Assembly (NCBI RefSeq): GCF_003957295.1
Contig: NZ_RQPJ01000003.1
Span: 62,001-126,000, forward strand
Length of the DNA: 64,000 nucleotides
From: Arenibacter aquaticus
Lineage (GTDB): Bacteria; Bacteroidota; Bacteroidia; Flavobacteriales; Flavobacteriaceae
Reading direction: 5' to 3'
Shown here: in pieces, positions 13,750 through 48,423 of the stretch
How positions within the stretch are numbered: position 1 is the stretch's first letter
How the letters are laid out: each line of letters opens with the position of its first letter
Made by a program: the position numbers and the translations under genes
The notes under the pieces: generated by a model
Told to the model about the DNA's origin: nothing
What the model saw: the letters and a program-made list of their open reading frames with translations, nothing else
Database searches by the model: none

Positions 13750-13795
13750 TCGGGAAATGTTACAGCATTTTCCGATTTTTTTTTCGATGAATCGG
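13750..13795 (-). promoter_or_regulatory. Overlapping dyads and TTCATCGA element upstream of susC
   Basis: Three elements overlap in the 163-bp fecR-susC gap. An imperfect inverted repeat has arms 13750-13759 and 13766-13775 (9 of 10 paired, 6-nt loop). A second dyad is CCGATT (13772-13777) with AATCGG (13790-13795). The minus strand carries TTCATCGA at 13791-13784, 100 bases before the susC start. The same octamer occurs at similar distance and orientation upstream of four exopolysaccharide-locus genes. It could be an operator or activator site; no T-run supports a terminator. Confidence 0.5.
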
Positions 13796-13854
13796 TCTAT
13801 TATCCGCGTTAAGCAATCCATTTTTATTGGTTTTACTCCATGGGCATTACTGGT

Positions 13855-15021
13855 TTAGTTAATAATGATTTTATTGTCCAATATCTGATATTCTATTTGG
13901 TATACTTTATTAAAATAGTTAAACACCTGTTCTATGGTCTCATGCTTGGTTTCAATGGTAGCATTAAAAGTCTCGGTAGCCAATTTTGCATTATTGTTTA
14001 TTATCACCACATTGTAATGTCGTTCCAACTTTTGTATAATATTTTCAAAAGCCACATCCCTAAAAACTAGATTGCCTTTCATCCAAGATGTATAAATTGA
14101 GGTATTTACTTCTTGCTTGGAAATATTGCTTCCAGACTTATTGTACACCCCTTTAAATCCGGGTTTTAGAAAAACCTCTTCCTGCTGCTCCCCTGTTGGT
14201 CCTTTGGACTCTGTTAGACTAACCGATCCATCCAACAGAACAACCTCCGTATTGCGATCCTCCGGATAATTGGAAACATTGAATTTTGTGCCATGTACCA
14301 GTATATCAAGATTTTGGGCACTTACAATAAATGGATTTTGGTCACTGTGGGCCACATCAAAATAGGCTTCGCCCATTAAAAATACTTCCCGCTGTTTCCC
14401 TTCTAGGAAACTCACAGGATATCTTAAAGAGCTACCGGCATTCAAATGAACATTGGTGCCATCCGAAAGGGTTATAGTAAACTGCTTACCATTTGGAACA
14501 CTTAGGGTGTTAAAGGACAATTCCTTTATTTCATTGACATCTTGGTAGACCAACTTGTTTCCATTACTGGATCCTATAACCTTTCCTTTAGAATCCTTGA
14601 CCAAGGAGGCTCCATTCCCGGAAATAATTTCAATTTGCCCATTATCCAGTACCAACTGAATAGCTTCTGATCTGGGCTGTATGGCTTCCTTGGGTGTATT
14701 TATTAAAATATCACTCTTAATCAACACCCCAATACCTAGAAATATAATTGCAATGGCCGCATACTTCAATGCAGGGGCATACCTACGACCATAAAATACA
14801 TTTTTGTCTTTTCTTATCTCCTTCTGTAGCTGTTTCCTTAGTTTGTTTAAATCCGGATCGTTCATAGCCAATGTAATAGCATAGTGGGTTTTAACATAGT
14901 CCTTGAAAATTGCATAATTCCCTTCTTCCCCTATCCAATTGTTAAGCACGTCCAACTCCTCTGAATTAGAGGAACGATTTAGGAATTTAATAATTAGCTT
15001 TTCTATTTCTTCAGAGATCAT
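13855..15021 (-). CDS. FecR-type anti-sigma factor
   Basis: 388 residues from the ATG at 15021; a GTG 24 bases further upstream is less likely. The cytoplasmic N-terminal part (1-80) is the sigma-binding region. One membrane helix lies at about 85-102. The periplasmic FecR domain includes VPNGKQFTITLSDGTNVHLN and LEGKQREVFLMGEAYFDVAH. The C-terminal DUF4974 domain (about 315-388) resembles an STN fold and starts near GNLVFRDVAFENIIQKLERHY. It senses the occupied SusC through the STN domain and controls the ECF sigma factor. Unusually, it is divergent from the sigma gene and codirectional with susC. Confidence 0.93.
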   Translation of the reverse strand: MISEEIEKLIIKFLNRSSNSEELDVLNNWIGEEGNYAIFKDYVKTHYAITLAMNDPDLNKLRKQLQKEIRKDKNVFYGRRYAPALKYAAIAIIFLGIGVLIKSDILINTPKEAIQPRSEAIQLVLDNGQIEIISGNGASLVKDSKGKVIGSSNGNKLVYQDVNEIKELSFNTLSVPNGKQFTITLSDGTNVHLNAGSSLRYPVSFLEGKQREVFLMGEAYFDVAHSDQNPFIVSAQNLDILVHGTKFNVSNYPEDRNTEVVLLDGSVSLTESKGPTGEQQEEVFLKPGFKGVYNKSGSNISKQEVNTSIYTSWMKGNLVFRDVAFENIIQKLERHYNVVIINNNAKLATETFNATIETKHETIEQVFNYFNKVYQIEYQILDNKIIIN

Positions 15022-15098
15022 TTTATTACCACTCTTTTTAAACACTACAAAGCAAAATCACAATACCCTAACTTTTTATTTAATTATTTTCTATATTA

Positions 15099-15113
15099 AC
15101 ACAATATTTGTGT
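15099..15113. promoter_or_regulatory. Short palindrome in the fecR/sigma divergent gap
   Basis: ACACAA (15099-15104) and TTGTGT (15108-15113) form a perfect dyad with a 3-base centre, 26 bases before the sigma gene start and 78 bases before the fecR start. It overlaps a TATTTG that could be part of a -7 box. It is a candidate shared operator or promoter core. Confidence 0.3.
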
Positions 15114-15139
15114 CAATTTTACTAAAAGAATAATTTTTT

Positions 15140-15745
15140 ATGAGTTTCGACGACAACGCAACTTTGATAGAAAATCTCCAAATAGGTAATGAAAAGGCCT
15201 ATATGTTCCTGCTAGACACCTATCACAAAAGACTATATGCCTATGCCCTTTCTTTGCTACATGATTCTGCTATGGCAGAAGATATTGTACAAAATGTATT
15301 CTTAAAAACTTGGAAATCCAGAAAAAAACTAAATAAGCAGTTTGCAATAAAAAGTTTTCTATACAAAGCGGTATACAATGAATTTATAAACAGCTACCAA
15401 AAGAAGAAGGCTATGATGCTTTTGCAACAAAAATATATAGAATCCTTAGGGGAAGTGGTAGAGGAAACCGACGACAACCTTATAGAAAAGATGATCGCTA
15501 TTGTAAATGAGGAAATTAAAAAATTACCTCCTAAGTGTCAGAAGGTATTTGTATTAAGTAAAAAGGAAGGACTTACCAATGTAGAAATATCCGATCACCT
15601 CAATGTTTCCATTAAAACTGTGGAAGCTCAGATTACCAAGGCTTTCACAATACTGAGAAAAAGTTTGGGAAAGAAATATGAAATGATCTTTTTTGTCTTT
15701 TTTGGAACCACTGCCCTAAAAAAGAATATAGTCACAAACCCATAA
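15140..15745 (+). CDS. ECF-type RNA polymerase sigma factor
   Basis: A 201-residue protein. Region 2 spans about residues 22-88 (RLYAYALSLLHDSAMAEDIV, then QNVFLKTWKSR). Region 4 spans about 128-177 (LPPKCQKVFVLSKKEGLTNV with the helix-turn-helix SDHLNVSIKTVEAQI). There is no region 1 or 3, as in ECF sigmas. A short hydrophobic tail (MIFFVFFGTTAL) follows region 4 and is unusual. The natural partner is the divergently encoded FecR-like anti-sigma, and the target is presumably the susC operon. It faces the small unknown gene at 15795. Confidence 0.94.
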   Translation: MSFDDNATLIENLQIGNEKAYMFLLDTYHKRLYAYALSLLHDSAMAEDIVQNVFLKTWKSRKKLNKQFAIKSFLYKAVYNEFINSYQKKKAMMLLQQKYIESLGEVVEETDDNLIEKMIAIVNEEIKKLPPKCQKVFVLSKKEGLTNVEISDHLNVSIKTVEAQITKAFTILRKSLGKKYEMIFFVFFGTTALKKNIVTNP

Positions 15746-15794
15746 TAAATAGAGTCCCAACCCTGTACGTTATAACCTTACTGCCTTGTAGTTT

Positions 15795-16148
15795 CTATAG
15801 CATTCCTTTTTCTTGAAAAAGTTTATAGATCATTTTTTTCTCGGACAAATCAAAGGAACGTTCCTCAAACCAATCGTGAATGGTTATTTTTTCCTTTTCC
15901 TCTTCAGCTTTATGTAATATTTCATCTGTCACCAAGTGCCAATACATCCATTTATTAGTGGCAAGGGCATAGCCAATTTCATCATTGACCAAGGACCTCA
16001 CGGGTTTATTTTTTAAACGAACACCATTTTCCAACACCGCCAAGGTTTTTGTCAACCTTACTACCTCGGAAAATGAAAACCTCAAGAAATCCCCAAAACC
16101 GTCTTGACCCACATTATACAATTTATCGCCCACTTTTAACATTTCCAT
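15795..16148 (-). CDS. Hypothetical protein, 117 residues
   Basis: A small soluble protein with no signal peptide or membrane helix. It begins MEMLKVGDKLYNV, then has SEVVRLTKTLAVLENG, a short beta-rich start that resembles a small barrel. A helical acidic/basic tail contains HKAEEEKEKITIHDWFEERS. The family is not recognised. It is convergent with the sigma gene and separated from it by 49 bases. Codon use and composition look like the neighbouring genes, so it is probably real. Confidence 0.6.
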   Translation of the reverse strand: MEMLKVGDKLYNVGQDGFGDFLRFSFSEVVRLTKTLAVLENGVRLKNKPVRSLVNDEIGYALATNKWMYWHLVTDEILHKAEEEKEKITIHDWFEERSFDLSEKKMIYKLFQEKGML

Positions 16149-16345
16149 ATTCTAAAAAAAGGAAACAAAAATACCGCTCCCAGTCTTTTTAAAAAACCAT
16201 AAAAAAAAGAACTTATAAACATTAGTCCCTTGGCAGCCTATATCCAAATGCCAAGCTGACCAAAGCTATTTTTTTGCATATTTCCATGACTATATACCAA
16301 GCTTTTAAACAATTCTTTTACATTTGCCCCATAAATAAGATTATA

Positions 16346-16927
16346 ATGAGTATAAAACGGGATTTGGAAAAAAGAAGCAATGGCCAATGTGAACTCTGTA
16401 CAGCTACAGATAATTTGACCGTTTTAGAAGTACAGCCTGTAAAAAATGGTGGTTTGGACGGCAACCTTTTAGTGTGTGAAACCTGCAGGGAGCAAATTGA
16501 AAATCCCGATAAAACCGATCCCAATCATTGGCGCTGTTTAAACGATAGTATGTGGAGCGAGCATACCCCGGTCAAGGTTTTGGCATGGCGCATGTTGAGC
16601 CGACTAAAATCTGAAGGATGGCCACAAGACTTACTGGATATGCTGTATTTGGAAGATGAAGTATTGGAATGGGCGAAAGCCACTGGCGAAGGAGGCCCTT
16701 CTGAAAACCAAATCATCCACAGGGATAGCAATGGTGCCGTTTTGGAGGCAGGAGACAGTGTTGTTCTCATTAAAGACTTGCCGGTAAAGGGATCTAGTAT
16801 GGTTGCCAAAAGAGGTACTGCTGTAAGACGCATATCCTTGGACCACGAAAACGAAGAATACATTGAGGGTAAAGTAGATGGCCAGCAGATCGTAATTCTT
16901 ACCAAATACGTCAAAAAAACGTCTTAA
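16346..16927 (+). CDS. YjdM/PhnA-like zinc-ribbon protein
   Basis: 193 residues from the ATG at 16346; an earlier in-frame ATG at 16274 adds a hydrophobic unlikely lead. The N-terminal zinc ribbon has C15-x2-C18 and C44-x2-C47. The C-terminal PhnA domain (about 123-190) contains DSNGAVLEAGDSVVLIKDLP and VDGQQIVILTKYVKK. E. coli YjdM has only the second domain plus a shorter ribbon (111 residues). Despite its phosphonate-linked name the family function is not settled, and no phosphonate genes are nearby. Confidence 0.88.
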   Translation: MSIKRDLEKRSNGQCELCTATDNLTVLEVQPVKNGGLDGNLLVCETCREQIENPDKTDPNHWRCLNDSMWSEHTPVKVLAWRMLSRLKSEGWPQDLLDMLYLEDEVLEWAKATGEGGPSENQIIHRDSNGAVLEAGDSVVLIKDLPVKGSSMVAKRGTAVRRISLDHENEEYIEGKVDGQQIVILTKYVKKTS

Positions 16928-17066
16928 CGCCTTGTTACCGCAGCTTATCTGCCTTCTTTTGGCTGCCATTAGGAGAACGGTACATAATTGCTGGTTCAGC
17001 CTCGTTTCCCGTAATACCCCAACATACGGCATATAATGGAATTAATGCGTAAACATCAATTTTTCC

Positions 17067-18338
17067 ATGGCAAAAGAAGACCCATATGCTGCATTGAAAT
17101 ATAAGGAATTCAATGTATTTTTATTAGTGCGTTTTGCCATGGTATTTGCATGGTCCATGCAGTTCGTGGTTATTGAATGGGAAGTATATTCCTTGACCAA
17201 AAACCCCTTATCCTTGGGAATCATAGGATTAATGGAAGTAATCCCAGCTGTTTCCCTAGCCTTATTTGCCGGTCATGTGGTTGATCAAAAAGAAAAAAAG
17301 GGGTTGTTGGTAAAATGTATTTTGGGATTCTCTATAATAAGCCTTGGACTGTTTTTGCTCACCTGGCCAACAATAATAAAGGATTGGTCTAAGAATAGTA
17401 TTCTGTATGCCATCTATTTTCTAGTCTTTTTGGGCGGTATTGTCCGTGCCTTTCTAGGCCCTACTATTTTCTCCCTGTTTGCTTTAATTGTCCCAAAAAA
17501 AGTATACCCCAATGCAGCTACCTGGAGCAGTTCGGTATGGCAGATGGGGGCAGTACTTGGCCCCGCCTTGGCGGGATTGACCATTAATTGGATCGGGGTA
17601 CACTGGTCTATGTGCCTTATCTTTTTCTTTTCTTTGATGGCCCTAATTACCTTATCAAAAATAGAGAAAAAACCTATTTTAAATCCTAAGATTGGGGAAC
17701 CGGTGTTGGAGAGTCTAAAAGAGGGGGTGAAATTTGTATTTGGCACAAAAATAATATTGGGGGCCATTACCTTGGATATGGTAGCAGTGCTTTTTGGCGG
17801 AGCCATAGCCTTATTGCCCATATACGCCCAAGATATCCTTAAGGTAGGCCCGGAAGGCTTTGGTATACTACGCGCGGCACCAGCGGTTGGCGCCTTGGTT
17901 ATAATGTTTACCTCTGCCCACTTTCCGTTAAATAAAAAGGCGGGCCTAAAACTCTTGGGATCTATTTTTGGTTTTGGTATTTGCATTATCGTTTTTGGGA
18001 TTTCCACATCATTCTGGATTTCTGTGATAGCCCTATTCTTTAGTGGGGTAACAGACGGTATTTCTATGATAATAAGACAAACCATATTGCAATTAAGGAC
18101 TCCGGATGAAATGCGCGGCAGGGTGGCCTCGGTAAACTCCATGTTCGTTGGCTCTTCAAATGAACTGGGAGCTTTTGAGAGCGGACTTACCGCTAAATTG
18201 ATGGGAACGGTTACTGCAGTGGTTTTTGGCGGAAGTATGACCTTAATTACCGTACTCTTTACTGCTGCCATCTCCCCTACTTTTAGAAAGCTGGATCTTA
18301 GAAAAGATTTATTGGAGCATGAGAACAGTAGTCAGTAG
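17067..18338 (+). CDS. MFS transporter (EntS/MFS_3-like exporter)
   Basis: A 423-residue, 12-helix inner-membrane protein. It has the MFS_3 hallmarks VIEWEVYSLTKNPLSLGIIG in helix 1-2, GHVVDQKEKKG in the first cytoplasmic loop, and RTPDEMRGRVASVNSMFVGSS after helix 10. These are typical of enterobactin-exporter-like transporters that expel small molecules. The substrate is unknown. The last codons (Ser-Ser-Gln-stop) are read from the first copies of the heptamer repeat that follows, so the array reaches into the gene. Confidence 0.9.
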   Translation: MAKEDPYAALKYKEFNVFLLVRFAMVFAWSMQFVVIEWEVYSLTKNPLSLGIIGLMEVIPAVSLALFAGHVVDQKEKKGLLVKCILGFSIISLGLFLLTWPTIIKDWSKNSILYAIYFLVFLGGIVRAFLGPTIFSLFALIVPKKVYPNAATWSSSVWQMGAVLGPALAGLTINWIGVHWSMCLIFFFSLMALITLSKIEKKPILNPKIGEPVLESLKEGVKFVFGTKIILGAITLDMVAVLFGGAIALLPIYAQDILKVGPEGFGILRAAPAVGALVIMFTSAHFPLNKKAGLKLLGSIFGFGICIIVFGISTSFWISVIALFFSGVTDGISMIIRQTILQLRTPDEMRGRVASVNSMFVGSSNELGAFESGLTAKLMGTVTAVVFGGSMTLITVLFTAAISPTFRKLDLRKDLLEHENSSQ

Positions 18339-18430
18339 TCAGTGGTCAGTGGTCAGTGGTCAGTGGTCAGTGGTCAGTGGTCAGTGGTCAGTGGTCAGTG
18401 GTCAGTGGTCAGTGGTCAGTGGTCAGTGGT
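18327..18430. repeat. Heptamer tandem array (AGTGGTC)n
   Basis: About 15 consecutive copies of a 7-bp unit. The first two are AGTAGTC, then 12 are identical AGTGGTC, then a partial copy. It fills most of the gap between two convergent genes. The first two units supply the last codons and stop (TAG) of the MFS gene. A perfect array of this length should vary by slippage. There are no spacers, so it is not CRISPR. Confidence 0.97.
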
Positions 18431-18462
18431 TTAAAAGTTAAATAAACCTTTACGTTTATGGA

Positions 18463-18960
18463 CTAAACTATTTTAAATCCCTTTTGATCCGAAGTATAAA
18501 CAAACATCCATTCCGGTGTGGAGGGATCCTGACTTTCCGCAACACATTTAAATCCATTTTTCTCGTAAAAATAACGCAAACCTTCTTCCTCTATGGTGAG
18601 CCAAAAAGAGCGATCTGGATATTTATTTTTTATTGCCTCTAGCCATTTAGATCCCATAGATTGATTTCTGTAGTTGGGACCTACAAACAAAAAACCAATA
18701 TAATAGTATCCTAAAGCTAGGTATGGTGCCCCATTTTCAATTTCAAACTGGGTTCTATTTGGGGGCTCCTCAATAAAAACAATACCTCCCGCCATAATTT
18801 CCGCTGCATTCCGTAGCACGTAGATACAGCCATTTTCCTTACAATCTTCCCAAACCGGGCCTATTGTCTTCTGCCATTCCTCAGGCAGAATCCTAAAAAA
18901 AATATCGGGTTCATTTTTCAACACCTTTAATTCCACCCAATCAATTTTATTTACTACCAT
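18463..18960 (-). CDS. GNAT-family N-acetyltransferase
   Basis: 165 residues from the ATG at 18960; the TTG two codons upstream is not needed. The acetyl-CoA region reads YYYIGFLFVGPNYRNQSMGS, then KWLEAIKNKYPDRSFWLTI, and the C-terminal part has LRYFYEKNGFKCVAES, typical of the GNAT fold. The start is 12 bases after the stop of the ATP-grasp gene upstream, so they are probably one operon. The substrate is unknown. Confidence 0.85.
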   Translation of the reverse strand: MVVNKIDWVELKVLKNEPDIFFRILPEEWQKTIGPVWEDCKENGCIYVLRNAAEIMAGGIVFIEEPPNRTQFEIENGAPYLALGYYYIGFLFVGPNYRNQSMGSKWLEAIKNKYPDRSFWLTIEEEGLRYFYEKNGFKCVAESQDPSTPEWMFVYTSDQKGFKIV

Positions 18961-18972
18961 ATGCAACCGTCC

Positions 18973-20376: not shown

Positions 20377-20703
20377 TAGGCTTTTTTAAACCTACAGGAA
20401 ATAAAACAATTCCCGAAAAAATTCGTTTATATACTTTGAGCTCCCTTGGATTGGGATTCATAAACATAGAGACTGTTTACTCCCATAGGAATAAGATTGG
20501 TATCAATGTAGTAAGCAAGAGCCCATTATAGAATAATTTGAAACAAATATATAGCAAATATAAATGTGAAATCAATAATTATTTAAGGGCCCTTTAAATA
20601 TTTTATTTACCTAAATACCCCTAATATTTTAGCAACTCTTTTAAGTGTTTATAGCAAATAAGTTTTATTAGAAACCTTATTTTTGAACAAAATTTTATAA
20701 TTC
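20377..20703. other. Gene-free gap with palindrome and -7 box
   Basis: A 327-bp AT-rich gap between divergent genes. It contains an imperfect palindrome centred on GGGCCC (20577-20602), about 100 bases before the phosphatase gene. It also contains a Bacteroidota-type -7 box TATTTTTG at 20678-20685, 18 bases before the start codon. No convincing -33 TTG was found at the expected spacing. No coding sequence was seen. Confidence 0.4.
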
Positions 20704-21444: not shown

Positions 21445-21454
21445 ACCAACCACC

Positions 21455-23836: not shown

Positions 23837-23855
23837 TATTTTAAGCGTATAATTT

Positions 23856-24635: not shown

Positions 24636-24671
24636 AGTTAAGTAGATTTCTGGTACAAGTATAGTGAAAAA

Positions 24672-28373: not shown

Positions 28374-28506
28374 TTCATCGAAAAAAGAACTTTTAAAAAT
28401 CCAAACCCCTAAAAAGAAACGTAAAACCACAGATGCAACGAAAAAGTGCATTTCATCGAAAATACTGTTTATTTTACCGATGATATTTAAAAAATAGATA
28501 ATATTG
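28374..28506 (+). promoter_or_regulatory. Paired TTCATCGA elements and -7-like box upstream of lyase 1
   Basis: TTCATCGA occurs at 28374-28381 and 28452-28459, 78 bases apart. The second is followed by an inverted core CGATGA at 28478-28483. A one-mismatch -7 box TAATATTG lies at 28499-28506. The element nearest the gene starts 97 bases before the ATG. The stretch aligns without gaps to 31944-32029 upstream of lyase 2, including the block AAACGTAAAACC (28417-28428 and 31987-31998), which supports function. Confidence 0.6.
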
Positions 28507-28548: not shown

Positions 28549-30294
28549 ATGAAATTTCACCCCACGAATGTATTTCAAGTGACCTTAGTGTGCTTTGTTC
28601 TTTTTTTAAGTTTTTCATGCAACAAGGATTCCGATCTTTTAGCGGAATATGTTGTGGAACAACCCAAAGCCTTTTTGGTAAATGACCAGGTAATTACCTT
28701 GGCCAACAGTCCTGTTACCATAGACCCTCTTAGTAATGATAGCTTTGACGATAAAGATAATGTGGTCATTACCGAGGTTACTCCACCTACCATTGGCAAT
28801 GCCGTGGTAAATGAGGACAACACTATTACCTATACCCCTGACCCTGATGAAACGGGTACGGATCAATTTGATTACTCCACTACAGTAACCAACCCTGACA
28901 ATACAGTGACCGAAGAGACCGGATCGGTAACGGTAACAGTAACCGACAAGACCCCTACGGAGGAACCTGTGGAAATGGGCCCTCTAAAGGCTTTTCCCTC
29001 AGCATATGGAGCTGGTTCGAATGTAACAGGTGGACGCGGAGGAAAAGTTCTACATGTAACTAACCTCAATGCAAGTGGCGATGGCTCATTAAAAGCTGCA
29101 TTGGAAAGTAGTGGTCCTGCCTACATCGTGTTTGATATTTCTGGAGTAATAAATTTACCACGAAATGGAATTGTTATTTCCGGAGCCGAAGATAAAACAG
29201 TATTGGGACAAACCGCACCTGAAGGTGGAATAACCTTAACAGGTGGCAAATTTAGATTTAACCACTCCAAAAACCTAATAATTAGATATCTTAGAAGTCG
29301 ACCTAGACTTGATAAAAATGGAAGTCTTACTTCTTCAGATGATGCGCACACCTCTGCATTTCTTTTCTACGGCACCGATGGGCTCATATTAGATCATGTT
29401 TCAGCCTCTTTTGCGCATGATAAAGGGATTAATTTTTACAACAACGACGGAATTGCCCCGAAGACAAGAAATATTACCGTATCAAATTCGTTAATTGCAG
29501 ATAGTAATACTATGATGAATTTAGGCAATAACCCTCAAGCGGACATGACCAATTGCCAAAATTTTTCGGTAATCTACAACCTATTTGGAAATTCGAGACA
29601 TAGAACACCAAATATGGAGGCGTTAGGATATGGTGAGATCATAAACAATGTAGTGCACGGATGGGGAGCAAGACTTTCAAATGTGTACAATGGCTTACTA
29701 TTAAACCACATTGGTAATTATTACAAGAACCCCGGATTGGGGGTAGTGGATAACAAACATCAACAAGTTGGTGTTTCTGCTGTGCCCCTCATATACACAA
29801 GTAGTAATTTTTATACAAATAGATTAACTGGTTCGGATAACGAAGATAATAGAGTAATTTGGTCGTACTTCAAAAACAAAACTCAACTTAATTCTTCCTT
29901 CTTCGTGTCTACAATGCACCCTAGGACAATTCCCAACCCATCACCTATCTTATCTGCTCAGGAAGCTTATGACAAAATATTAGCAGATGTTGGTGCCAAT
30001 AAATATTTGGATAATGAAGGAATTCCACAAAAATATATAGATGATTACGACCAAAGTGTTATATCCAATGTCAAAAACAACCGAAGGGTCGAGCCCTTAA
30101 ACACTTCAAACTGGAAACTTCCCGAATTGCCAAGTAACGAAAGGTCTTCCTCTTACGATTCAGATAAGGACGGTATGGCAGATGCCTGGGAAATAAGACT
30201 ATTTGGGGATCTTTCGAAAGAGGCTACAGGAACTGACGCTTCAAGTGAATATACCAATATTGAAGTATTTGCTTATCAAGTAGATTTCGAATAG
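28549..30294 (+). CDS. PL1 pectate-lyase-like lipoprotein 1
   Basis: A 581-residue protein with lipid Cys24 (LSFSC). One cadherin/Ig-like domain lies at about 40-133. The right-handed beta-helix domain starts near 145 with AYGAGSNVTGGRGGKVLHV, then TNLNASGDGSLKAAL, the PL1 opening. Putative calcium/active-site features are SSDDAHTS (about 262-269), LDHVSASFAHDKG (281-293) and NSRHRTPN (348-355), where the Arg is the expected catalytic base. The C-terminal DSDKDGMADAWE resembles a calcium loop. PL1 enzymes eliminate across 4-linked uronates. Its place between two halves of an exopolysaccharide locus suggests the cell's own uronate-rich polymer as substrate, which is inference. Confidence 0.88.
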   Translation: MKFHPTNVFQVTLVCFVLFLSFSCNKDSDLLAEYVVEQPKAFLVNDQVITLANSPVTIDPLSNDSFDDKDNVVITEVTPPTIGNAVVNEDNTITYTPDPDETGTDQFDYSTTVTNPDNTVTEETGSVTVTVTDKTPTEEPVEMGPLKAFPSAYGAGSNVTGGRGGKVLHVTNLNASGDGSLKAALESSGPAYIVFDISGVINLPRNGIVISGAEDKTVLGQTAPEGGITLTGGKFRFNHSKNLIIRYLRSRPRLDKNGSLTSSDDAHTSAFLFYGTDGLILDHVSASFAHDKGINFYNNDGIAPKTRNITVSNSLIADSNTMMNLGNNPQADMTNCQNFSVIYNLFGNSRHRTPNMEALGYGEIINNVVHGWGARLSNVYNGLLLNHIGNYYKNPGLGVVDNKHQQVGVSAVPLIYTSSNFYTNRLTGSDNEDNRVIWSYFKNKTQLNSSFFVSTMHPRTIPNPSPILSAQEAYDKILADVGANKYLDNEGIPQKYIDDYDQSVISNVKNNRRVEPLNTSNWKLPELPSNERSSSYDSDKDGMADAWEIRLFGDLSKEATGTDASSEYTNIEVFAYQVDFE

Positions 30295-31943: not shown

Positions 31944-32053
31944 TTCATCGAAAATGGAAAAACGAAACATCCATACCCCCAAAACCAAACGTAAAACCTC
32001 TATCACAACAAAATTGCGTCATTCATCTAAAAAATTTACCGTTTGTCGATGAA
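31944..32053 (+). promoter_or_regulatory. Paired TTCATCGA-type elements upstream of lyase 2
   Basis: TTCATCGA at 31944-31951 and the variant TTCATCTA at 32022-32029 are 78 bases apart, exactly as upstream of lyase 1. The second is followed by an inverted TCGATGAA at 32046-32053, preceded by ACCGTT. The nearest direct element starts 89 bases before the ATG. A conserved TGTGAACCCC follows in both lyase leaders (28505 and 32072). Confidence 0.6.
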
Positions 32054-32110: not shown

Positions 32111-34195
32111 ATGACATTCACCCCCAAAACCCTAATGCGTTTAAGCCTACTCACCTATGTCCTATTTTTAAGTTATTCCTGCAACAAGGATTCCGACCTA
32201 TTGGCCGAATACGTTATTGAGGAAAATCCAATAAGCGATGACCCCACAGAAGTGGTCATTGATCTGGAAAATGCCTTGATTGCCACTAACGAGGATGTAG
32301 CGGTGTCTTTTAACCTGCTTAACAATACAAGTAGCACAAGAAAAGGCAGAAGAAGATACAAAAGCAATACCGAGCCCAAACATGGAAAATTTACCATAGA
32401 AAAAGACAGTATAGCCGTATATACCCCTACGGGCGATTTTAATGGTGAGGACGAGGTTGAGATTACCTTGGAAGTCATCAATGAAGACGAAACCATCACA
32501 GAGGAGGTGGTGGACTTAGAGCTGACCGTAGCCCCTGTGGAAGATGTGGTACAGGATACCATTATCATTACCCAAGAGGAACCCGTAATCATTGAACCGT
32601 TAGAAAACGATACCTTTAATGAAGAGAGTGAGGTAATAATTACCGAAGTAAGTCAACCAGCAAATGGTACGGCAGAGATCAATGAGGATAACACCATTAC
32701 CTATACGCCCAATACAACTACTTCCGAGGAGACAAACACGGAAGAAGATCCTAGTGCAGCGGAAGACAGCTTCACCTACACTACATCGGTAACCAACCCT
32801 GACAATACGGTATCCGAAGAGACCGGTTCGATTTCGGTAACAGTGACCGATAAGGCCCCAACAGAGGAAACTATTGACATGGGAATCCTTAAAGCCTTTC
32901 CTACCGCCTATGGGGCTGGTTCTGATGTAACTGGTGGCCGCGGTGGAAAAGTTCTACATGTAACCAATCTCAACGCCAGTGGCGATGGCTCGCTGAAGGC
33001 TGCCTTGGAGACGTCTGGGCCAGCATATATTGTGTTTGATGTCTCAGGAGTAATAAATTTACCAACCAACGGGATTGTAATTTCTAAAGCAGAGGACAAA
33101 ACAGTATTGGGGCAGACCGCCCCACAAGGTGGAATTACCTTGACGGGTGGTAAATTTCGATTTAACCATTCTAGGAATTTAATAATTAGATACATAAGAA
33201 GCCGCCCAAGACTTGACAAGACCGGTAGCTTAACCTCTTCTGATGATGCGCACACCTCAGCATTCCTTTTTTATGGTACCGATGGTGTGATTTTAGATCA
33301 CGTTTCTGCATCATTTGCTCATGACAAAGGAATTAACTTTTATAACAATGATGGAAATGCTCCAAACACAAAAAGAATTACTGTTCAGAATTCATTGATT
33401 GCAGATAGCAATACCATGATGAATCTGGGAAACAATCCACAAGCAGATATGACGAATTGCCAAGATTTTTCAGTTATTTACAATTTATTTGGTAACTCTC
33501 GCCATAGAACTCCAAACATGGAAGCCTTAGGGTACGGCGAAATCATAAATAATGTCGTGCACGGATGGGGATCTAGACTGTCAAATGTATATAACGGTGT
33601 TATACTTAACCATATTGGTAATTACTATAAGAATCCCGGTCTTGGAGAAGTTGACAACAAACATCAGCAGGTAGGAGTTTCGGCTGTGCCATTAATATAC
33701 ACAAGTAATAATTTTTACAGCAACAGGTTGTCAGGTTCAGACAACGAAGATAATAGGGTGATATGGTCATACTTCCAGAACAAGACCCAGTTGAACTCTT
33801 CATTTTTTGTTTCCAGTATGCACCCAAGAACAATTCCAAACCCTTCACCAATCTTATCTGCTCAAGAAGCCTATGACAAAATCATAGCGGATGTTGGTGC
33901 GAACAAATATTTAGACGCCCAAGGTGAACCTCAATTTTACATAGATGATTATGACAAGAGTGTAATAAATAATGTCAAAAATAATATTAGAGTAACACCT
34001 TTGAATACATCTAACTGGAGACTTCCCGAACTTCCAAATAACAATAGATTATCTTCATTTGACACAGATAACGATGGAATGGCAGACGCATGGGAAAATA
34101 GAGTTTTTGGAGATTTATCCAAAGAAGCCACAGGAAATGACGCATCAGATAGTTATACCAATATAGAGGTTTATGCCTACCAGGTAGACTTCTAA
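32111..34195 (+). CDS. PL1 pectate-lyase-like lipoprotein 2
   Basis: A 694-residue paralogue of the protein at 28549-30294, with lipid Cys24 (LSYSC). It has two cadherin/Ig-like domains (about 45-145 and 150-250) where the paralogue has one. The extra one contains a basic loop RKGRRRYKSN and acidic linkers. The beta-helix domain repeats the same key segments: VTGGRGGKVLHVTNLNASGD, SSDDAHTSAFLFYG, LDHVSASFAHDKG, NSRHRTPNMEALGYGE, and the C-terminal DTDNDGMADAWE. The catalytic parts of the two are nearly identical, so they probably cut the same linkage, with different placement by the extra domain. It has its own conserved regulatory region and terminator. Confidence 0.88.
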   Translation: MTFTPKTLMRLSLLTYVLFLSYSCNKDSDLLAEYVIEENPISDDPTEVVIDLENALIATNEDVAVSFNLLNNTSSTRKGRRRYKSNTEPKHGKFTIEKDSIAVYTPTGDFNGEDEVEITLEVINEDETITEEVVDLELTVAPVEDVVQDTIIITQEEPVIIEPLENDTFNEESEVIITEVSQPANGTAEINEDNTITYTPNTTTSEETNTEEDPSAAEDSFTYTTSVTNPDNTVSEETGSISVTVTDKAPTEETIDMGILKAFPTAYGAGSDVTGGRGGKVLHVTNLNASGDGSLKAALETSGPAYIVFDVSGVINLPTNGIVISKAEDKTVLGQTAPQGGITLTGGKFRFNHSRNLIIRYIRSRPRLDKTGSLTSSDDAHTSAFLFYGTDGVILDHVSASFAHDKGINFYNNDGNAPNTKRITVQNSLIADSNTMMNLGNNPQADMTNCQDFSVIYNLFGNSRHRTPNMEALGYGEIINNVVHGWGSRLSNVYNGVILNHIGNYYKNPGLGEVDNKHQQVGVSAVPLIYTSNNFYSNRLSGSDNEDNRVIWSYFQNKTQLNSSFFVSSMHPRTIPNPSPILSAQEAYDKIIADVGANKYLDAQGEPQFYIDDYDKSVINNVKNNIRVTPLNTSNWRLPELPNNNRLSSFDTDNDGMADAWENRVFGDLSKEATGNDASDSYTNIEVYAYQVDF

Positions 34196-35586: not shown

Positions 35587-35642
35587 TTCATCGAGTTTAT
35601 CACGACTTAAAATAATAATAACATCATTTTAAATTACTTTTG
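35587..35642 (+). promoter_or_regulatory. TTCATCGA element and -7 box upstream of wbpP
   Basis: TTCATCGA lies at 35587-35594, 86 bases before the chosen ATG. A perfect Bacteroidota -7 box TACTTTTG lies at 35635-35642, 30 bases before the ATG. No clear -33 TTG is at the right spacing, consistent with an activator-dependent promoter. This probably drives the main plus-strand operon. Confidence 0.55.
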
Positions 35643-35672: not shown

Positions 35673-36668
35673 ATGAACAGTACATTACCACAAATACATT
35701 CCAAATTTCATATATTGGTCACCGGAGGAGCTGGGTTTATAGGATCCAATCTATGTGAAACACTACTAACAAACGGGAATACAGTCACTTGTTTGGATAA
35801 TTTTGCTACCGGAAAGCGGGAAAACATTGCCCCTCTACTTTCCAATCCTAAATTTAAGCTTGTAGAAGGTGATATACGAAACCTGGGCGATTGCCAAAAG
35901 GCCTGCAAAGGTGTTGACTATATTTTACATCAGGCCGCTTTGGGCTCGGTACCCCGGTCTATAAATGACCCTATCACCAGTAATGAGGTAAATGTTTCCG
36001 GTTTTTTAAATATGTTGGTGGCTGCACGGGATGCCGAGGTAAAACGCTTTGTATACGCAGCCAGTTCTTCCACCTACGGGGATTCCAAATCCTTGCCCAA
36101 GGTAGAGGATATCATAGGTAAACCGCTTTCCCCCTATGCCATCACTAAATATGTGAACGAACTTTATGCCGATATCTTTAGCAAGACCTATGGCTTGGAG
36201 ACTGTAGGCCTTCGTTATTTTAATGTTTTTGGTCGTAAACAGGATCCAAACGGAGCCTATGCAGCGGTTATCCCAAAATTTGTAATGCAACTGATGAAAC
36301 ATGAGTCTCCAGTTATTAATGGAGATGGCAGCTACTCCCGTGATTTCACCTATATAGACAATGTGGTACAAATGAACCTAAGGGCTATTGGCACTGACAA
36401 TAAAGAAGCCGTAAACACCGTTTACAATGTAGCCTATGGGGAACGTACAGATCTGAATGAACTGGTTGGACTGCTAAAGAAGTTTTTGAGTGAATACGAC
36501 CCTAAAATTGCCGATGTGGAAATTAAATATGGTCCTAACAGGCAGGGAGATGTTCCCCACTCCCTGGCCTCAATTGATAAAGCTAGGAACTTATTGGGTT
36601 ATGACCCTGAGTACAACATTGAAACAGGATTAAAAGAGGCCGTAAAATGGTATTGGGATAATTTATAA
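35673..36668 (+). CDS. wbpP: UDP-N-acetylglucosamine 4-epimerase (WbpP/TviC-like)
   Basis: 331 residues from the ATG at 35673; a TTG 33 bases upstream overlaps the -7 box and is rejected. The NAD motif is [36 protein letters not shown] is the WbpP-group substrate motif, followed by [10 protein letters not shown] and YAITKYVNE (Y-x3-K), then [20 protein letters not shown]. It interconverts UDP-GlcNAc and UDP-GalNAc. With the downstream WbpO/TviB-like dehydrogenase it predicts UDP-GalNAcA. The stop is 14 bases before ugd. Confidence 0.9.
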
Positions 36669-38011: not shown

Positions 38012-38048
38012 ATCATATATCCAACAATTAGAAACATAAATTAAAAAC

Positions 38049-39329: not shown

Positions 39330-39347
39330 TCGAAAAATATAGAGTAA

Positions 39348-42674: not shown

Positions 42675-43743
42675 TTTTATAATAGGCTCCCTAACTGGAG
42701 GCGGAGCGGAGCGCGTTTTGGTTTTACTTGCTAATTATTTTGTTGAAAATGGACATACGGTAAGGATAATTACATTTTATGATGGGGATGCTTATGAGTT
42801 GGATTCCAGAATTTCCCGTGTTAGATTACACGGAGGCAAAATAAAGAATCATAAAATTAGGAGTTTAAAAAATTTAATTGGTTTCTATAGGATAAAAGAC
42901 AACAGGCCCAACGTAATAATATCCTTTATCACCCAAACCAACCTAGTATCCATAATTGTTGCCAAAATTTATGACATCAACATAATTGTATCAGAACACA
43001 ATAGTTACCTGAGAGCACAGCACCCCAAGTATCTTACCAATTTTACCCGTACTTTTTTATATCCGTTGGCCAATTACCTTACTGTTCTAACAAGTTTTGA
43101 CATAGAGTATTATAAAAAGAAAAAGGTTAATGTAGTTGTAATGCCCAATCCTTGTTCCTTTGCCCCCATTGTTGAACATAATAAAACTAAAGATAAAACA
43201 ATACTAGCAATAGGAAATTTAGATAGATATCACCACAAAGGTTTCGACAATCTCTTAACATTAATAGCTCCAGTACTTCATAATCACAAGGATTGGACTT
43301 TAAAAATTATTGGTGGCGGGGAAAAGGGCTTAAAATTTTTAACCAAATTAGTAAATCAACACAACATTCAAGATCAAGTAATCTTCACTGGATTTAGAAA
43401 GGATGTCAATCAAATAATGCAGCGGTCCGAAGTTTTCATTCTTTCTTCTCGTTATGAAGGACTTCCAATGGTATTGTTAGAAGCCATGTCCCAAGGGATG
43501 GCCTGTATCGCCTATGACTGCAAAACCGGACCAGCGGATATTATTGAAAATGGTAAAAATGGATTATTGATTGAAGATCAAAATAGTGAAGCCATGCAAA
43601 AAGAATTATCAAAACTACTTCACGACAATGCCCTACGCAATAAATTAAGAAACCATGCCGTTCAAAGCTTGAATAGATTTTCGATGGAAAATATTGGCCA
43701 GCAGTGGGAACAAATATTTAGCAAATTGCCGATACGCGAATAA
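42664..43743 (+). CDS. Family 4 glycosyltransferase
   Basis: A 359-residue GT-B enzyme. The N-terminal acceptor domain opens IDFIIGSLTGGGAERVLVLL. The donor domain holds GNLDRYHHKGFDNLL and the E-x7-E motif in YEGLPMVLLEAMSQGMA. No signal peptide; acts on the cytoplasmic face. The specific linkage is unknown. It overlaps the polymerase gene by 11 bases. Confidence 0.93.
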   Translation: MKIDFIIGSLTGGGAERVLVLLANYFVENGHTVRIITFYDGDAYELDSRISRVRLHGGKIKNHKIRSLKNLIGFYRIKDNRPNVIISFITQTNLVSIIVAKIYDINIIVSEHNSYLRAQHPKYLTNFTRTFLYPLANYLTVLTSFDIEYYKKKKVNVVVMPNPCSFAPIVEHNKTKDKTILAIGNLDRYHHKGFDNLLTLIAPVLHNHKDWTLKIIGGGEKGLKFLTKLVNQHNIQDQVIFTGFRKDVNQIMQRSEVFILSSRYEGLPMVLLEAMSQGMACIAYDCKTGPADIIENGKNGLLIEDQNSEAMQKELSKLLHDNALRNKLRNHAVQSLNRFSMENIGQQWEQIFSKLPIRE

Positions 43744-43769
43744 AGAGATTAAATCATTAATAAACTATT

Positions 43770-44324
43770 ATGAGCTTAGTTAGTATATTTAAATTGTTAA
43801 AAGACTATTATCTTAGATTCTCAAAAACTGGTGTGGACTACGCTAGATATAAAGGTGTAAAGGTAGGAAATGATTGCAGAATATTTACGACCTCACTTGG
43901 TACGGAGCCATGGCTAATCTCTATTGGTAATAAGGTCACGGTTACTTCCGGAGTCCGGTTTCTAACCCATGACGGATCTACATGGTTGTTTAATGATGAA
44001 AAAGGTAGACGTGAATTATTTAAAAGAGTCAAGGTAGGAAACAACGTCTTTATAGGTATCAATTCCATCATCATGCCGGGAGTAGTAATAGAAGACAAAG
44101 TAATTGTTGCTGCTGGCAGCGTAGTTACTAAATCCGTACCATCAGGTGTTATTGTGGGCGGAAATCCTGCGAGAATAATTGGTGACTATAAAAAGCATGA
44201 AGAAAACATTCTAAAAAACTGTGTTTCCAGACAAGAAATGGACTTCTCTAAAGATTACAGGCCTAGAGTAGAAGAAGTTGTAGATACTAGCACAAAAAAT
44301 TATATGAAAAAACAACCCAGTTAA
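43770..44324 (+). CDS. Hexapeptide-repeat O-acyltransferase (LbH/XAT type)
   Basis: A 184-residue protein. Left-handed beta-helix repeats include [20 protein letters not shown] and [20 protein letters not shown], then [10 protein letters not shown], the usual close of sugar acetyltransferases. [20 protein letters not shown] contains the catalytic His region. It probably acetylates a sugar of the repeat unit. Its stop directly abuts the start of the next glycosyltransferase gene. Confidence 0.9.
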
Positions 44325-45434
44325 ATGAATTATTCCTCAAAAATAAAAATTACTTTTATATTACCTTCATTACGTGCAGGGGGAGCCGAACGTGTAATGT
44401 CATTTGTTGCCCAAAATATTAATTCAAAAATATTTGATGTTACTCTTCTCATTGTAGGATATGAAAAAGATAGTCAGTACAATGTCAGTGGAATTAATCT
44501 CATCTTTCTGAATGAATCCAGAGTTTTAAAGGCTATACCTAAGTTACTTCGATATTTATGGATCTCAAAACAAGATATCATAATTAGTGCCATTGGACAC
44601 CTTAATACTGTTATGGGCTTATTATCTATATTCACTCCTAAGACTAAATTTATTGCAAGAGAAGTAAATGTAAACAGTGTGTTAAAAGAACATTCAGAAA
44701 ATAAACCACTAGTTGGCTTTCATTTCATAAGCTCATTAAGTAAAAGGTTTATGGACAAAATAATTTGTCAATCCAATGATATGGCTGCTGATGTTATAAA
44801 TAATTCTAAGGTCAATAAAAATAAAATTATCATTATCAATAATCCCATATCTAAAAAATTTCAAGCAAAAAAGGACGACAACCAAAACTTCAGCGAATTA
44901 TTAAAATTTATTACAGTGGGTAGGTTGGCTAAGCAAAAAGGGCATCTACGTATACTTGAAGCCTTACATAAGCTAAATATCCCTTTTCATTATACCATTG
45001 TGGGAGATGGCCCAGAAAAAGACGTCATTTTTGATACTATTTCGGAATATGAACTTGACACAAGCGTTACGCATATACCTTATACGACCAAGGTAGAAGA
45101 GTATTTGGCCAAGAATGATATATTTTTACAAGGGTCATATGTTGAAGGATTTCCAAACGCACTATTAGAAAGCTGTGCCGTTGGCACCCCTGTTCTGGCC
45201 TTTGAGGCTCCGGGTGGGATTGACGAAATAATTGAAGAGGGAGTTAATGGATACATAGCTCATTCCATTGAGGACTATGTTAATAAAATAGAATTATTAA
45301 GTAAATCGTTAAAGGTTCTTAAACCTCGTCAGGTTAGTAACTCGGTATTATCCAAGTACAGTTCAGAAAAAATACTATCACAGTACGAAAATCTATTCAT
45401 TAGTCTTATTGAACCTAATAACCTAAATACATGA
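44325..45434 (+). CDS. Family 4 glycosyltransferase
   Basis: A 369-residue GT-B protein. It opens KITFILPSLRAGGAERVMSF. The donor domain has FITVGRLAKQKGHLRILEAL, IVGDGPEKD and the E-x7-E motif in YVEGFPNALLESCAVG. The start codon follows the acyltransferase stop with no gap, and the stop overlaps the next gene by 4 bases (ATGA). Confidence 0.93.
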   Translation: MNYSSKIKITFILPSLRAGGAERVMSFVAQNINSKIFDVTLLIVGYEKDSQYNVSGINLIFLNESRVLKAIPKLLRYLWISKQDIIISAIGHLNTVMGLLSIFTPKTKFIAREVNVNSVLKEHSENKPLVGFHFISSLSKRFMDKIICQSNDMAADVINNSKVNKNKIIIINNPISKKFQAKKDDNQNFSELLKFITVGRLAKQKGHLRILEALHKLNIPFHYTIVGDGPEKDVIFDTISEYELDTSVTHIPYTTKVEEYLAKNDIFLQGSYVEGFPNALLESCAVGTPVLAFEAPGGIDEIIEEGVNGYIAHSIEDYVNKIELLSKSLKVLKPRQVSNSVLSKYSSEKILSQYENLFISLIEPNNLNT

Positions 45435-46522
45435 AAGTTCTACAATTAATTAATTCGTTGGCTGCTGGAGGTGCTGAAAAATTGTTAGTCGATTCTGTTA
45501 TTGGGTATCATAACCGAGGAATTAAAGTAGACATTCTACTTTTGCGGGGAGGGTCATCACCCTTTACAGATAAACTAAAAAAATACCCGAATATCAAAAT
45601 TTATGATTTAGGAATAAAAACAAATGTTTACAATCCAAAACTTATATTTTTTCTTCATAAGCACTTCAAAAATTACGATATTATTCATGTTCATCTATTT
45701 CCTGCATTGTACTGGGCTTCGTTTACTAGGTTTTTCAATAAATCCAAATACAAAATGCTCCTAACAGAGCATAGTACCAATAATAAAAGAAGGAACAATC
45801 CCCTATTTCAATTTGTTGATAAAATAATATATAAACAATATGATTACATTGTCCCTATATCGGATTCCGCTTCAAAAAACTTAAAAAATCATTTGGGTCT
45901 TTCATATAACAATATCAAAACAATCAACAATGGAATAGACCTTAAAATAATTCGAAATGCTAAAGCCTATTCAAAAAGTAGTCTTAATTTAAATGAAGAG
46001 GATTTTGTGCTAATTCAAGTGTCCAGTTTTCGGTACCCAAAAGACCAGAAAACGGTAATAAAGGCATTGAACTTTTTGCCAAAAAATGTTCATTTATTAT
46101 TGGTTGGAGAGGGCCCCTTAAAACAGGAAGCTCAAGATTTTACCCACTTATTGAACTTATCCAACAGAGTACATTTTTTAAATTTAAGAACTGATGTGCC
46201 AGAACTTCTTAAAACAGCAGATATAGCAATACTTTCATCCCATTATGAAGGACTATCATTATCAAGTGTTGAAGGGCTCGCATCGGGAAAGCCATTCCTT
46301 TCCACAGAGGCGCCCGGATTAACAGACGTAGTGGAAGGCGCTGGACTTCTATTCCCAATTGGTGATGAGCAAAAGTTAGCAGAAATCATTACTAAACTAA
46401 AAAATGAGGAATCTTTCTATTCTGAAATATCTAAAAAAGGAGTAGAAAGATCCAAGAATTACGACATAGAATTGATGATAGATCAATATTTAGAACTTTA
46501 CTATATCATGGTAAAAAATTAG
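45431..46522 (+). CDS. Family 4 glycosyltransferase
   Basis: A 363-residue GT-B protein. It opens KVLQLINSLAAGGAEKLLVD. HVHLFPALYWAS and LTEHSTNNKRR lie in the acceptor domain. The donor domain has LLVGEGPLKQEAQD and E-x7-E in YEGLSLSSVEGLASG. It is the third of four GT4 genes in this run. Confidence 0.93.
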   Translation: MKVLQLINSLAAGGAEKLLVDSVIGYHNRGIKVDILLLRGGSSPFTDKLKKYPNIKIYDLGIKTNVYNPKLIFFLHKHFKNYDIIHVHLFPALYWASFTRFFNKSKYKMLLTEHSTNNKRRNNPLFQFVDKIIYKQYDYIVPISDSASKNLKNHLGLSYNNIKTINNGIDLKIIRNAKAYSKSSLNLNEEDFVLIQVSSFRYPKDQKTVIKALNFLPKNVHLLLVGEGPLKQEAQDFTHLLNLSNRVHFLNLRTDVPELLKTADIAILSSHYEGLSLSSVEGLASGKPFLSTEAPGLTDVVEGAGLLFPIGDEQKLAEIITKLKNEESFYSEISKKGVERSKNYDIELMIDQYLELYYIMVKN

Positions 46523-46578
46523 CCATACAGTGAATAAACAAGAATTACCAGTTCATTTAAAATGCCAATTAGTTTAGA

Positions 46579-47730
46579 ATGCAAAAAAAAATAATTAGAA
46601 TCACTACGGTTCCCATGTCTTTGGGGGGATTGCTTACAGGACAACTTAAATACATGTCCAACCATTATGAGGTTGTTGGTATCTCCTCTTACGAGAACGG
46701 AAAACTAGACTTAATAGGGCAACAAGAAGGCATACGGGTACTGCCAGTGAACATGACTCGTACCATTACGCCCTTTAAAGACCTAAAAGCTATTTGGCAA
46801 CTTTATAGGATCTTTAAAAAAGAAAAACCCTATATTGTCCATACCCATACTCCCAAAGCCGGAACAGTGGGGATGATAGCCGCTTTTTTGGCCGGAGTGC
46901 CCCATAGGCTGCACACCATTGCCGGATTACCCCTGTTGGAAGCCCGTGGCAGCAAAAGGAAAATACTGGATCTGGTAGAAAAACTAACCTACTCCTGTGC
47001 CACCATGATCTACCCCAATTCCTTTGGCATGAAGGATATTATCCTGGAAAACAAATACACAACCCAAAACAAACTAAAAGTAATAGGCCAAGGAAGCTCT
47101 AACGGCATAGATACCAAACAATTTGACCCAAAGGTGGTGAGCGATACTGCTAAGAAGGAATTACGCACCTCCCTAGGGATTAATGAGGAAGACTTTGTTT
47201 ATGTCTTTGTAGGTAGAATGGTCACGGATAAAGGCGTAAATGAACTGGTAAGAACCTTCGCTAAATTAACTAAACAGATAAAGAACATAAAATTGGTTTT
47301 GGTGGGTCCCCATGAGAAATCCTTGGACCCCTTATTGGATGAAACCGAAAACCTAATTGCCACTAATCCAGATATCATTGAGGTAGGCCATCAAAAGGAT
47401 GTACGTCCATTCTTTGCCATGGCAGACGTTCTTTCATTTCCAAGCTATAGGGAAGGGTTTCCAAATGTAGTAATGCAGGCCGGTGCCATGGGTATTCCTT
47501 CTATAGTATCAAATATTAATGGTTGTAATGAGATTATACAGGATGGTGTTAACGGGTATATAGTACCCTCAAAAGATGAAGAAAGCCTTTACAAGTCCAT
47601 GCTTCGAATTTACAATAACAAACAAGAAGGCATTGTTTTTAACCCCACTGAAATTAGGGATCTAATCAAAGAAAGATATCAGAGGACCACTATTTGGAAG
47701 GCCATATTGGAAGAATACAATTCTTTATAG
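46579..47730 (+). CDS. Family 4 glycosyltransferase with Gln in the E-x7-E position
   Basis: A 383-residue GT-B protein. It opens IIRITTVPMSLGGLLTGQLK; the acceptor domain has IVHTHTPKAGTVGMIAAFLA. The donor domain has VFVGRMVTDKGVNELVRTFA and YREGFPNVVMQAGAMG, where the second Glu of the usual E-x7-E motif is Gln. This group is common in EPS clusters next to the initiating transferase and often adds the second sugar; that role is inferred. It is separated by 56 bases from the preceding gene. Confidence 0.92.
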   Translation: MQKKIIRITTVPMSLGGLLTGQLKYMSNHYEVVGISSYENGKLDLIGQQEGIRVLPVNMTRTITPFKDLKAIWQLYRIFKKEKPYIVHTHTPKAGTVGMIAAFLAGVPHRLHTIAGLPLLEARGSKRKILDLVEKLTYSCATMIYPNSFGMKDIILENKYTTQNKLKVIGQGSSNGIDTKQFDPKVVSDTAKKELRTSLGINEEDFVYVFVGRMVTDKGVNELVRTFAKLTKQIKNIKLVLVGPHEKSLDPLLDETENLIATNPDIIEVGHQKDVRPFFAMADVLSFPSYREGFPNVVMQAGAMGIPSIVSNINGCNEIIQDGVNGYIVPSKDEESLYKSMLRIYNNKQEGIVFNPTEIRDLIKERYQRTTIWKAILEEYNSL

Positions 47731-47795
47731 TTCTGCTTTCTTCTCCTGTACTATGGGCATATTTCAATTTGTATATTTGACATATAAAAGGAGAT

Positions 47796-48404
47796 ATGGA
47801 TAAACAAAACCACATACAATGGGCTATATTGTGTACCGGCTGGGGGAGAAATGCCAAAGACATTATAAAGGCCCTGCACAAGGATAACAATAGTTTGGCC
47901 TCCAGGATTAATTTACTGATATACGGGCAAGAACCTTGTGGTGCAGCCGAAGAAGCCAAAAAACACGAAATTGAGACCCTACTGGTTAGAAGATCAGATT
48001 TCCCAACAATGGAAGCCTATCAAAATCATATATTATTACTGCTAAAGAAAAAAAGTATAGACCGTGTGTTCCTTTTAAATTACAAGTACCGCATACGTGA
48101 AGCTCTGTTACAAGGATTTCCCAATAGAATATACAACGTACACCCCTCCCTATTTCCCAGTTTTTTAGGTACCAAAACAGCCATACAGGATGCTTTGGAC
48201 TATGGGGTTAAAATTACCGGTATTACAACACACATTATAGACCATGAACTGGACAAGGGAACCATTTTACAACAGCAGGCTATAAAGATTAAGGCTGGGG
48301 ATACCTTTGAAACTCTTTACCCTAAATTTGCCAAAAAGGGCAAAAAAATAATTCTTAGAACTATGCGCGATGCAGAACAAGAGGTGAGGAAACCTAAAAA
48401 ATAA
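47796..48404 (+). CDS. Formyltransferase-family protein (probable sugar N-formyltransferase)
   Basis: A 202-residue protein of the formyl_transf_N fold. The catalytic triad region is present: Asn and His in YNVHPSLFPSFLGTKT, and Asp in THIIDHELDKGTILQQ. This matches the N-x-H...D arrangement of PurN-type enzymes. The purine role is unlikely because it sits between a glycosyltransferase and the initiating sugar transferase. The likely substrate is the amino group of the UDP-4-amino sugar made by the aminotransferase at 26624. Confidence 0.8.
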   Translation: MDKQNHIQWAILCTGWGRNAKDIIKALHKDNNSLASRINLLIYGQEPCGAAEEAKKHEIETLLVRRSDFPTMEAYQNHILLLLKKKSIDRVFLLNYKYRIREALLQGFPNRIYNVHPSLFPSFLGTKTAIQDALDYGVKITGITTHIIDHELDKGTILQQQAIKIKAGDTFETLYPKFAKKGKKIILRTMRDAEQEVRKPKK

Positions 48405-48423
48405 TTATTTCATCGATAAATAA
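48405..48423 (+). promoter_or_regulatory. TTCATCGA element within a palindrome upstream of the sugar transferase
   Basis: TTATTT (48405-48410) and AAATAA (48418-48423) flank CATCGAT, so the element TTCATCGA at 48409-48416 sits in a dyad. It starts 102 bases before the ATG at 48511. A one-mismatch -7 box TATCTTAG lies at 48446-48453. It may give the initiating transferase its own promoter. Confidence 0.45.

Follow-up and report, generated by a model that had tools for sequence, protein, structure and literature searches.

The genome of Arenibacter aquaticus contains a 64,000-nucleotide stretch (contig NZ_RQPJ01000003.1, positions 62,001 to 126,000 of the forward strand; henceforth the window, in whose coordinates positions are given below) in which one octamer, TTCATCGA, recurs upstream of two polymer lyase genes, a polymer operon that begins with a wbpP-type epimerase gene, a sugar-transferase gene and a susC gene. 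What could this word be doing there? A first-pass annotation, made from the sequence alone, had proposed that it is an unrecognised regulator site which joins polymer synthesis, the two lyases and a polysaccharide utilisation locus (PUL) in one regulon. The transcription-factor sites described so far in Flavobacteriaceae are, to our knowledge, few, and a literature search returned nothing on the motif, or on the RNA family that we describe below, among the matches listed (judged by title or by the start of the abstract). On the evidence set out here, TTCATCGA is very probably the core of an operator half-site for one activator that is conserved across the family, and we read this operator as one that has so far gone undescribed.

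The octamer and the longer motif around it

Seven exact copies of TTCATCGA occur in the window (at 13784 and 32046 on the minus strand, and at 28374, 28452, 31944, 35587 and 48409 on the plus strand), whereas 100 shuffles of the window gave 1.14 on average and 4 at most. Positions and orientations agree with those first reported, as do the distances from octamer to start codon of 97 bp (lyase 1), 89 bp (lyase 2, from the variant TTCATCTA at 32022), 86 bp (wbpP), 102 bp (sugar transferase) and 100 bp (susC). By our own gene list every one of the seven falls between genes and none within coding sequence, with intergenic DNA making up 12.5% of the window. In only 1% of 300 intergenic shuffles did some octamer containing three or more G/C reach seven copies, and the word is denser in the window than in the remaining genome (Poisson P = 3e-5).

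Beyond the window the bare word behaves differently. In the 5.23-Mb genome we counted 76 copies, compared with 148 of the reversed word, so that genome-wide enrichment of the bare octamer has to be rejected. The absence of copies from genes, which the first-pass annotation had also noted, likewise belongs to the window and not to the word, since 49 of the 76 genomic copies fall within open frames; the other 27 are intergenic when open frames are called crudely (P = 2e-7 against 12.5%). By contrast, a longer consensus taken from the flanks of the intergenic copies is strongly enriched. Specifically, TGYATTTCATCGAW has 110 matches in 18 genomes of the genus and its reversed control has 1, while TGYATTTCATCGAWAA has 101 matches across 60 family genomes, each standing for one genus, of which 40 contain it, and its control has none. 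These sites are mostly intergenic, namely 80 of the 86 that we classified in the genus (of the 110, 16 from the lyase locus and 8 from that of the purF RNA were set aside) and 44 of 71 classified in the family outside our own genome, where another 12 fall within the final 20 bp of the upstream gene. The family loci covered numbered 70 when our own genome is included.

One could argue that the octamers are common only through duplication of the lyase promoters and, for the rest, through chance. The promoters of lyase 1 and lyase 2 do resemble homologues by eye, which means that their octamer copies are not independent; the susC copy is unconserved and, as just described, the bare octamer is outnumbered by its reversed control. 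However, duplication and chance are hard to reconcile with the counts for the extended motif in genus and family, or with the conservation of the wbpP site, which is independent of the lyases, and we consider this explanation extremely improbable.

Among the genes that recur downstream of the motif are small proteins sorted by the type IX secretion system (T9SS), lipoproteins with CAP domains or DUF4382, and a subtilase (Pfam, one example each), as well as 5-FCL/uvrC, leucine-rich repeat proteins and an approximately 85-residue C..FGH protein, all named by eye. The C..FGH family was seen downstream of the motif at nine loci; its genes often adjoin a BrnQ-like transporter (by eye), a few of them have long complementarity to the small RNA discussed below, and the one copy that was scanned had no Pfam match. 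At five other loci, upstream of a methyltransferase-like gene (by eye), a GTAAGTnTTTACTTAC-type palindrome adjoins the motif and is possibly the site of a second regulator.

Repeat spacing, promoter position and candidate regulators

The motif is often repeated in the same orientation. A second half-site (at least 6 of 8 matches) begins 20-22 bp downstream at 28 of the 70 family sites, whereas control offsets gave 1.9 on average and never more than 5 (P = 1e-25). To place the sites relative to the core promoter we accepted three forms of the -7 box (TAnnTTTG, TAnnTTAG and TAnnATTG). A box starts 47-50 bp after TTTCATCG at 13 of 76 family sites, where 0.53 would be expected; for TAnnTTTG alone the figures are 5 and 0.05. 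At the promoters of the small RNA in named genomes, 29 of 34 boxes start at 58-59 bp. In those parts of the Flavobacterium psychrophilum transcription map that we drew on (PMC9723704), which deal with sigma-factor motifs and other small RNAs and not with the present operator or RNA, the same box TAnnTTTG is the sigma-A element and occupies -12 to -5. With the box so placed, and for an offset of 48 bp, the core would fall at about -60 and the second half-site at about -39 to -32, a position suited to an activator.

This geometry also bears on whether the octamer is an operator at all, and not an element of a leader RNA or of an alternative sigma factor. At 86-102 bp before the start codon it could belong to a 5' leader, and at many sites no -7 box can be recognised further downstream. 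Yet at lyase 1, at wbpP and at most RNA promoters with a recognisable box, the box follows the core by 48-59 bp, so that the octamer would lie upstream of transcription; we therefore regard a leader or sigma element as highly improbable. The operator that we favour would consist of an asymmetric half-site, approximately GTGYATTTCATCGAWAA, used singly or as head-to-tail repeats spaced by about 21 bp, with an activator bound near -60 and the sigma-A -7 box, where recognisable, usually about 48 bp further downstream. What the computation shows is the motif itself, with its enrichment, its conservation, its repeat spacing and its largely intergenic placement; we infer that a protein binds these sites, that it activates, and that the same protein serves all of them.

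Several observations weigh against such an operator. Besides the scarcity of the bare octamer, 15 of the 71 family sites lie inside genes, and most sites have no recognisable -7 box, including those of the CAP, methyltransferase and TetR classes, in which none was found. In the T9SS class the box lies at 72 bp (13 of 16), and a period test of the box offsets gave no sharp peak; on these two grounds we rejected strict helical phasing of the box. Relatives of the lyase 2 promoter (seven examined) retain only the distal of its two copies, and in the genus of the window the promoters of the small RNA have a palindromic form that would be unexpected for a pure direct-repeat binder. Finally, no regulator gene came to light in front of which the site is conserved (one LytTR gene was tested across genomes).

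Which type of protein might bind? A LytTR-type response regulator on two head-to-tail half-sites, two helical turns apart, is a serious candidate, although we would put it somewhat below even chances. LytTR-type tandem sites, such as those of AgrA and AlgR, are direct repeats about two helical turns apart and upstream of the core promoter, and the present sites are like them in both respects, with their direct repeat of 20-22 bp. We take the LytTR half-site consensus to be [TA][AC][CA]GTTN[AG][TG]; by eye, ATCGATGAA agrees at 6 of 9 positions, the degenerate half-site ACCGATGAT at 8 of 9, and another, ACCGTTTGT (32038-32046), at 9 of 9. The core TTCATCGA/TCGATGAA differs from LytTR sites in being longer and flanked by a conserved TGYA, and it reads GAT where that consensus has GTT. 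The motif also precedes a LytTR regulator gene in one genome of the genus and, in another genus, a gene for a LytS-type kinase that is followed by a receiver-domain frame. However, in the other 16 genomes in which the same LytTR promoter was in view the octamer is missing, and with 1 of 17 we rejected this gene as a conserved, autoregulated regulator. The first-pass annotation had guessed at LytTR-type half-sites beside the inverted copy at 32046; the repeat of about 21 bp fits that guess, and the LytTR gene tested does not.

An AraC/XylS-type activator could also account for the repeat. Tandem operators of that family have an asymmetric half-site of about 16 bp repeated at 21 bp, and the conserved stretch found here, asymmetric, about 16 bp long and repeated at 21 bp, would fit such operators; TGCA and CGATAA would be contacted one turn apart within each half-site, and the tandem would lie near the -35 region. 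No linked gene of the AraC type turned up among the selected downstream proteins that were run on Pfam. We consider an activator of this type unlikely, if well worth keeping in mind; both types are possible for the regulator.

Promoters of the window and their relatives

We compared the promoters of these genes in the window with those of orthologous genes. In the relatives the octamer is kept at the lyases and at wbpP, present only as a variant in the three closest orthologues of the sugar transferase, and absent at susC.

The promoter of lyase 1 (28549..30294, plus strand; its sequence matches pectate lyase 9buj and VexL 6fi2) has two exact octamers, a distal one at 28374..28381 within GTGTATTTCATCGAAAA and a proximal one at 28452..28459 within GTGCATTTCATCGAAAATA, both on the plus strand and both conserved in the genus. 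They are followed on the same strand by a second, degenerate half-site, TTTTACCG, at 28472..28479 (21 bp 3' of TTTCATCG) and by the putative -7 box TAATATTG at 28499..28506 (48 bp from TTTCATCG). Relatives of lyase 1 are present in all 18 genomes of the genus, and in 12 of these, our own included, an exact octamer pair 77-78 bp apart lies upstream; the remaining six promoters have octamers at other spacings, or variants only. As a side observation, in several genomes the alignment of lyase 1 with its relatives is limited to the first ~140 residues, i.e., promoter and N-terminus are kept and the catalytic part is different, and two other genera have the site together with a gene that has the same N-terminus (by eye). 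One reading is that the lyase domain has been swapped modularly behind a fixed promoter.

Lyase 2 (32111..34195, plus strand; sequence match to VexL 6fi2) has an exact distal octamer at 31944..31951 and, 78 bp after it, the proximal variant TTCATCTA at 32022..32029, both on the plus strand. A degenerate half-site and the inverted octamer (32046-32053) follow within TTTACCGTTTGTCGATGAA at 32035..32053. All seven relatives examined have one exact distal copy, some 171-178 bp ahead of the start codon; the proximal copy is variable, and TTCATCTA as such was found in none of the seven.

At wbpP (35673..36668, plus strand; we keep the name given by the first-pass annotation) the octamer lies at 35587..35594 and the putative -7 box, TACTTTTG, at 35635..35642, 49 bp from TTTCATCG and on the same strand. 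The start was set at the ATG at 35673 because a longer TTG frame would begin within the box. Among 19 aligned sequences the octamer is exact in seven genomes, including our own, and has one mismatch in four more; the other eight do not contain it, and their upstream DNA is different.

The sugar-transferase promoter has an exact octamer at 48409..48416 and a weaker putative box, TATCTTAG, at 48446..48453, 38 bp from TTTCATCG (both plus strand). In all three closest orthologous copies, from two genomes, the variant TTCATCGG stands 95 bp before the start; none of seven more distant promoters contains the exact octamer, and one of them has two one-mismatch words. This gives weak support to the sugar transferase as a member of the regulon.

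The susC copy (13784..13791, minus strand) appears to be lineage-specific or due to chance, and outside the conserved regulon, as none of ten orthologous susC promoters contains the octamer. We reject susC as a member, and the connection to the PUL finds no support; of the proposed regulon of polymer synthesis, two lyases and a PUL the lyases and wbpP are retained. The susC orthologues have another conserved block in common, consisting of CGGAAAATGCTGTAACATTTCCCG-type DNA. Here (13700-13790, minus strand), and in eleven related loci, a palindrome-like CGGAAAATGCTGTAACATTTCCCG occurs together with AAGTATAACCA, with susC behind FecR and no relation to the octamer. Elsewhere in the window, 13 head-to-tail copies of a 7-bp unit (CCACTGA, minus strand) occupy 18338-18429 at the end of an MFS gene.

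A small RNA family behind purF

The best lead from the motif lies outside the window. Its strongest sites precede a multicopy RNA family of ~73 nt behind purF, which in our own genome comprises two tandem genes with terminators (positions 2000-2400 of the purF locus, L026), where the sites form two perfect palindromes 30 bp apart. A near-invariant hairpin is predicted at the 5' end of the RNA, GUAAGAUUUGGGG is single-stranded, and the stem of the terminator differs in sequence between copies: a GC-rich stem followed by a T-run occurs in 36 of 36 copies that were aligned, with 30 distinct 5' arms. Folding of the alignment gave the near-invariant 5' hairpin only, and no compensatory pairs. Every one of the 18 genus genomes has the RNA and, among the matches listed, it occurs in at least 80 stretches, whose titles name genera of Flavobacteriaceae or uncultured Flavobacteriaceae and Bacteroidetes. 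In 51 of the 59 arrays recognised behind a purF-like C-terminus, an exact octamer of either orientation lies no more than 140 bp away. In an Rfam search of L026 a tRNA alone passed its gathering score, and no small RNA family did; STnc40 scored 37 on the terminator region, compared with a cut-off of 45.

A second small RNA is found in 16 of the 18 genus genomes (in our own around position 1500 of locus L461, and at 15 orthologous loci). Its core, CCCAAATCTTA, is complementary to the GUAAGAUUUGGGG region of the first (-22.8 kcal/mol for one pair), and the motif lies upstream of it in nine of the 16, our own genome not among them, when one mismatch is allowed. The second RNA is thus likely to be a sponge or a target of the first. 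An XRE/S24 regulator and a TPR kinase encoded beside it were dropped as candidate regulators of the motif, because the site falls between this RNA and the XRE gene and is uninformative on both candidates.

Could the first RNA act back on the genes behind the motif? Using the consensus RNA as query, we set frames that begin 25-210 bp after the motif and span 75 codons or more against other frames. A perfect complement of at least 10 nt around the start codon was found in 6 of 79 motif-downstream frames and 8 of 908 others (P = 4e-4), or 7 of 687 others after overlapping frames were removed (P = 1e-3), while 8-nt complements were found in 18 of 79 and 62 of 908; in these counts related genes are not independent, and the consensus stands in for each genome's own RNA. 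Only one of 400 shuffled RNA queries reached six such start-codon matches. The longest complement, of 15 nt, directly precedes the start codon of a C..FGH small protein, and the start context ACTTATG, complementary to CAUAAGU in the RNA, occurs at 20 of 388 starts, 14 of which are lyases by position. In duplex energy the two lyases of the window (-24.2 and -25.0) rank above all 40 other window genes (best -24.1). For lyase leaders, shuffle fractions ran from 0.046 to 0.76 (five of 18 tested), which is unconvincing as proof of pairing, and the starts of 22 C..FGH proteins, taken as a group, did not stand out from background in energy (P = 0.34) or in longest exact match (P = 0.09). Given the kinship of the genes, the consensus query and the unsupportive duplex energies, we treat feedback by start-codon pairing onto the motif regulon as a hypothesis.

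Such an arrangement would have parallels. In Gac-Rsm and LuxO-Qrr circuits one regulator drives several redundant small RNAs and, through them, surface and matrix genes; as a difference, the present RNA looks like a base-pairing type. FopS of Bacteroides thetaiotaomicron, as far as covered by the portion of the report that we drew on (PMC11697453), is a set of multicopy small RNAs with a terminator that pair near start codons. The RNA found here resembles FopS as covered there in being multicopy, in coming from Bacteroidota and in having a terminator; it differs in its predicted 5' hairpin, in its tandem arrays, many of them behind purF, and in the operator in its promoter. Tentatively, and at rather less than even odds, we suggest a Qrr/Rsm-like circuit across the family, in which an activator on GTGYATTTCATCGA repeats would switch on surface and matrix genes together with a multicopy base-pairing RNA that caps translation of the same genes (an incoherent feed-forward loop), and the second RNA would serve as a sponge.

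In the operator model that we favour, the activator would have as targets in the window both polymer lyases and the polymer operon that begins at wbpP, and elsewhere small secreted proteins, lipoproteins and the multicopy small RNA, which may pair back onto start codons within the same regulon. Flavobacteriaceae are important for the turnover of marine polysaccharides, and a motif with near-zero background in 40 of the 60 sampled genera offers a handle on a global regulon of the family, one that would tie secreted proteins and both the synthesis and the cleavage of polymers to a conserved family of small RNAs.

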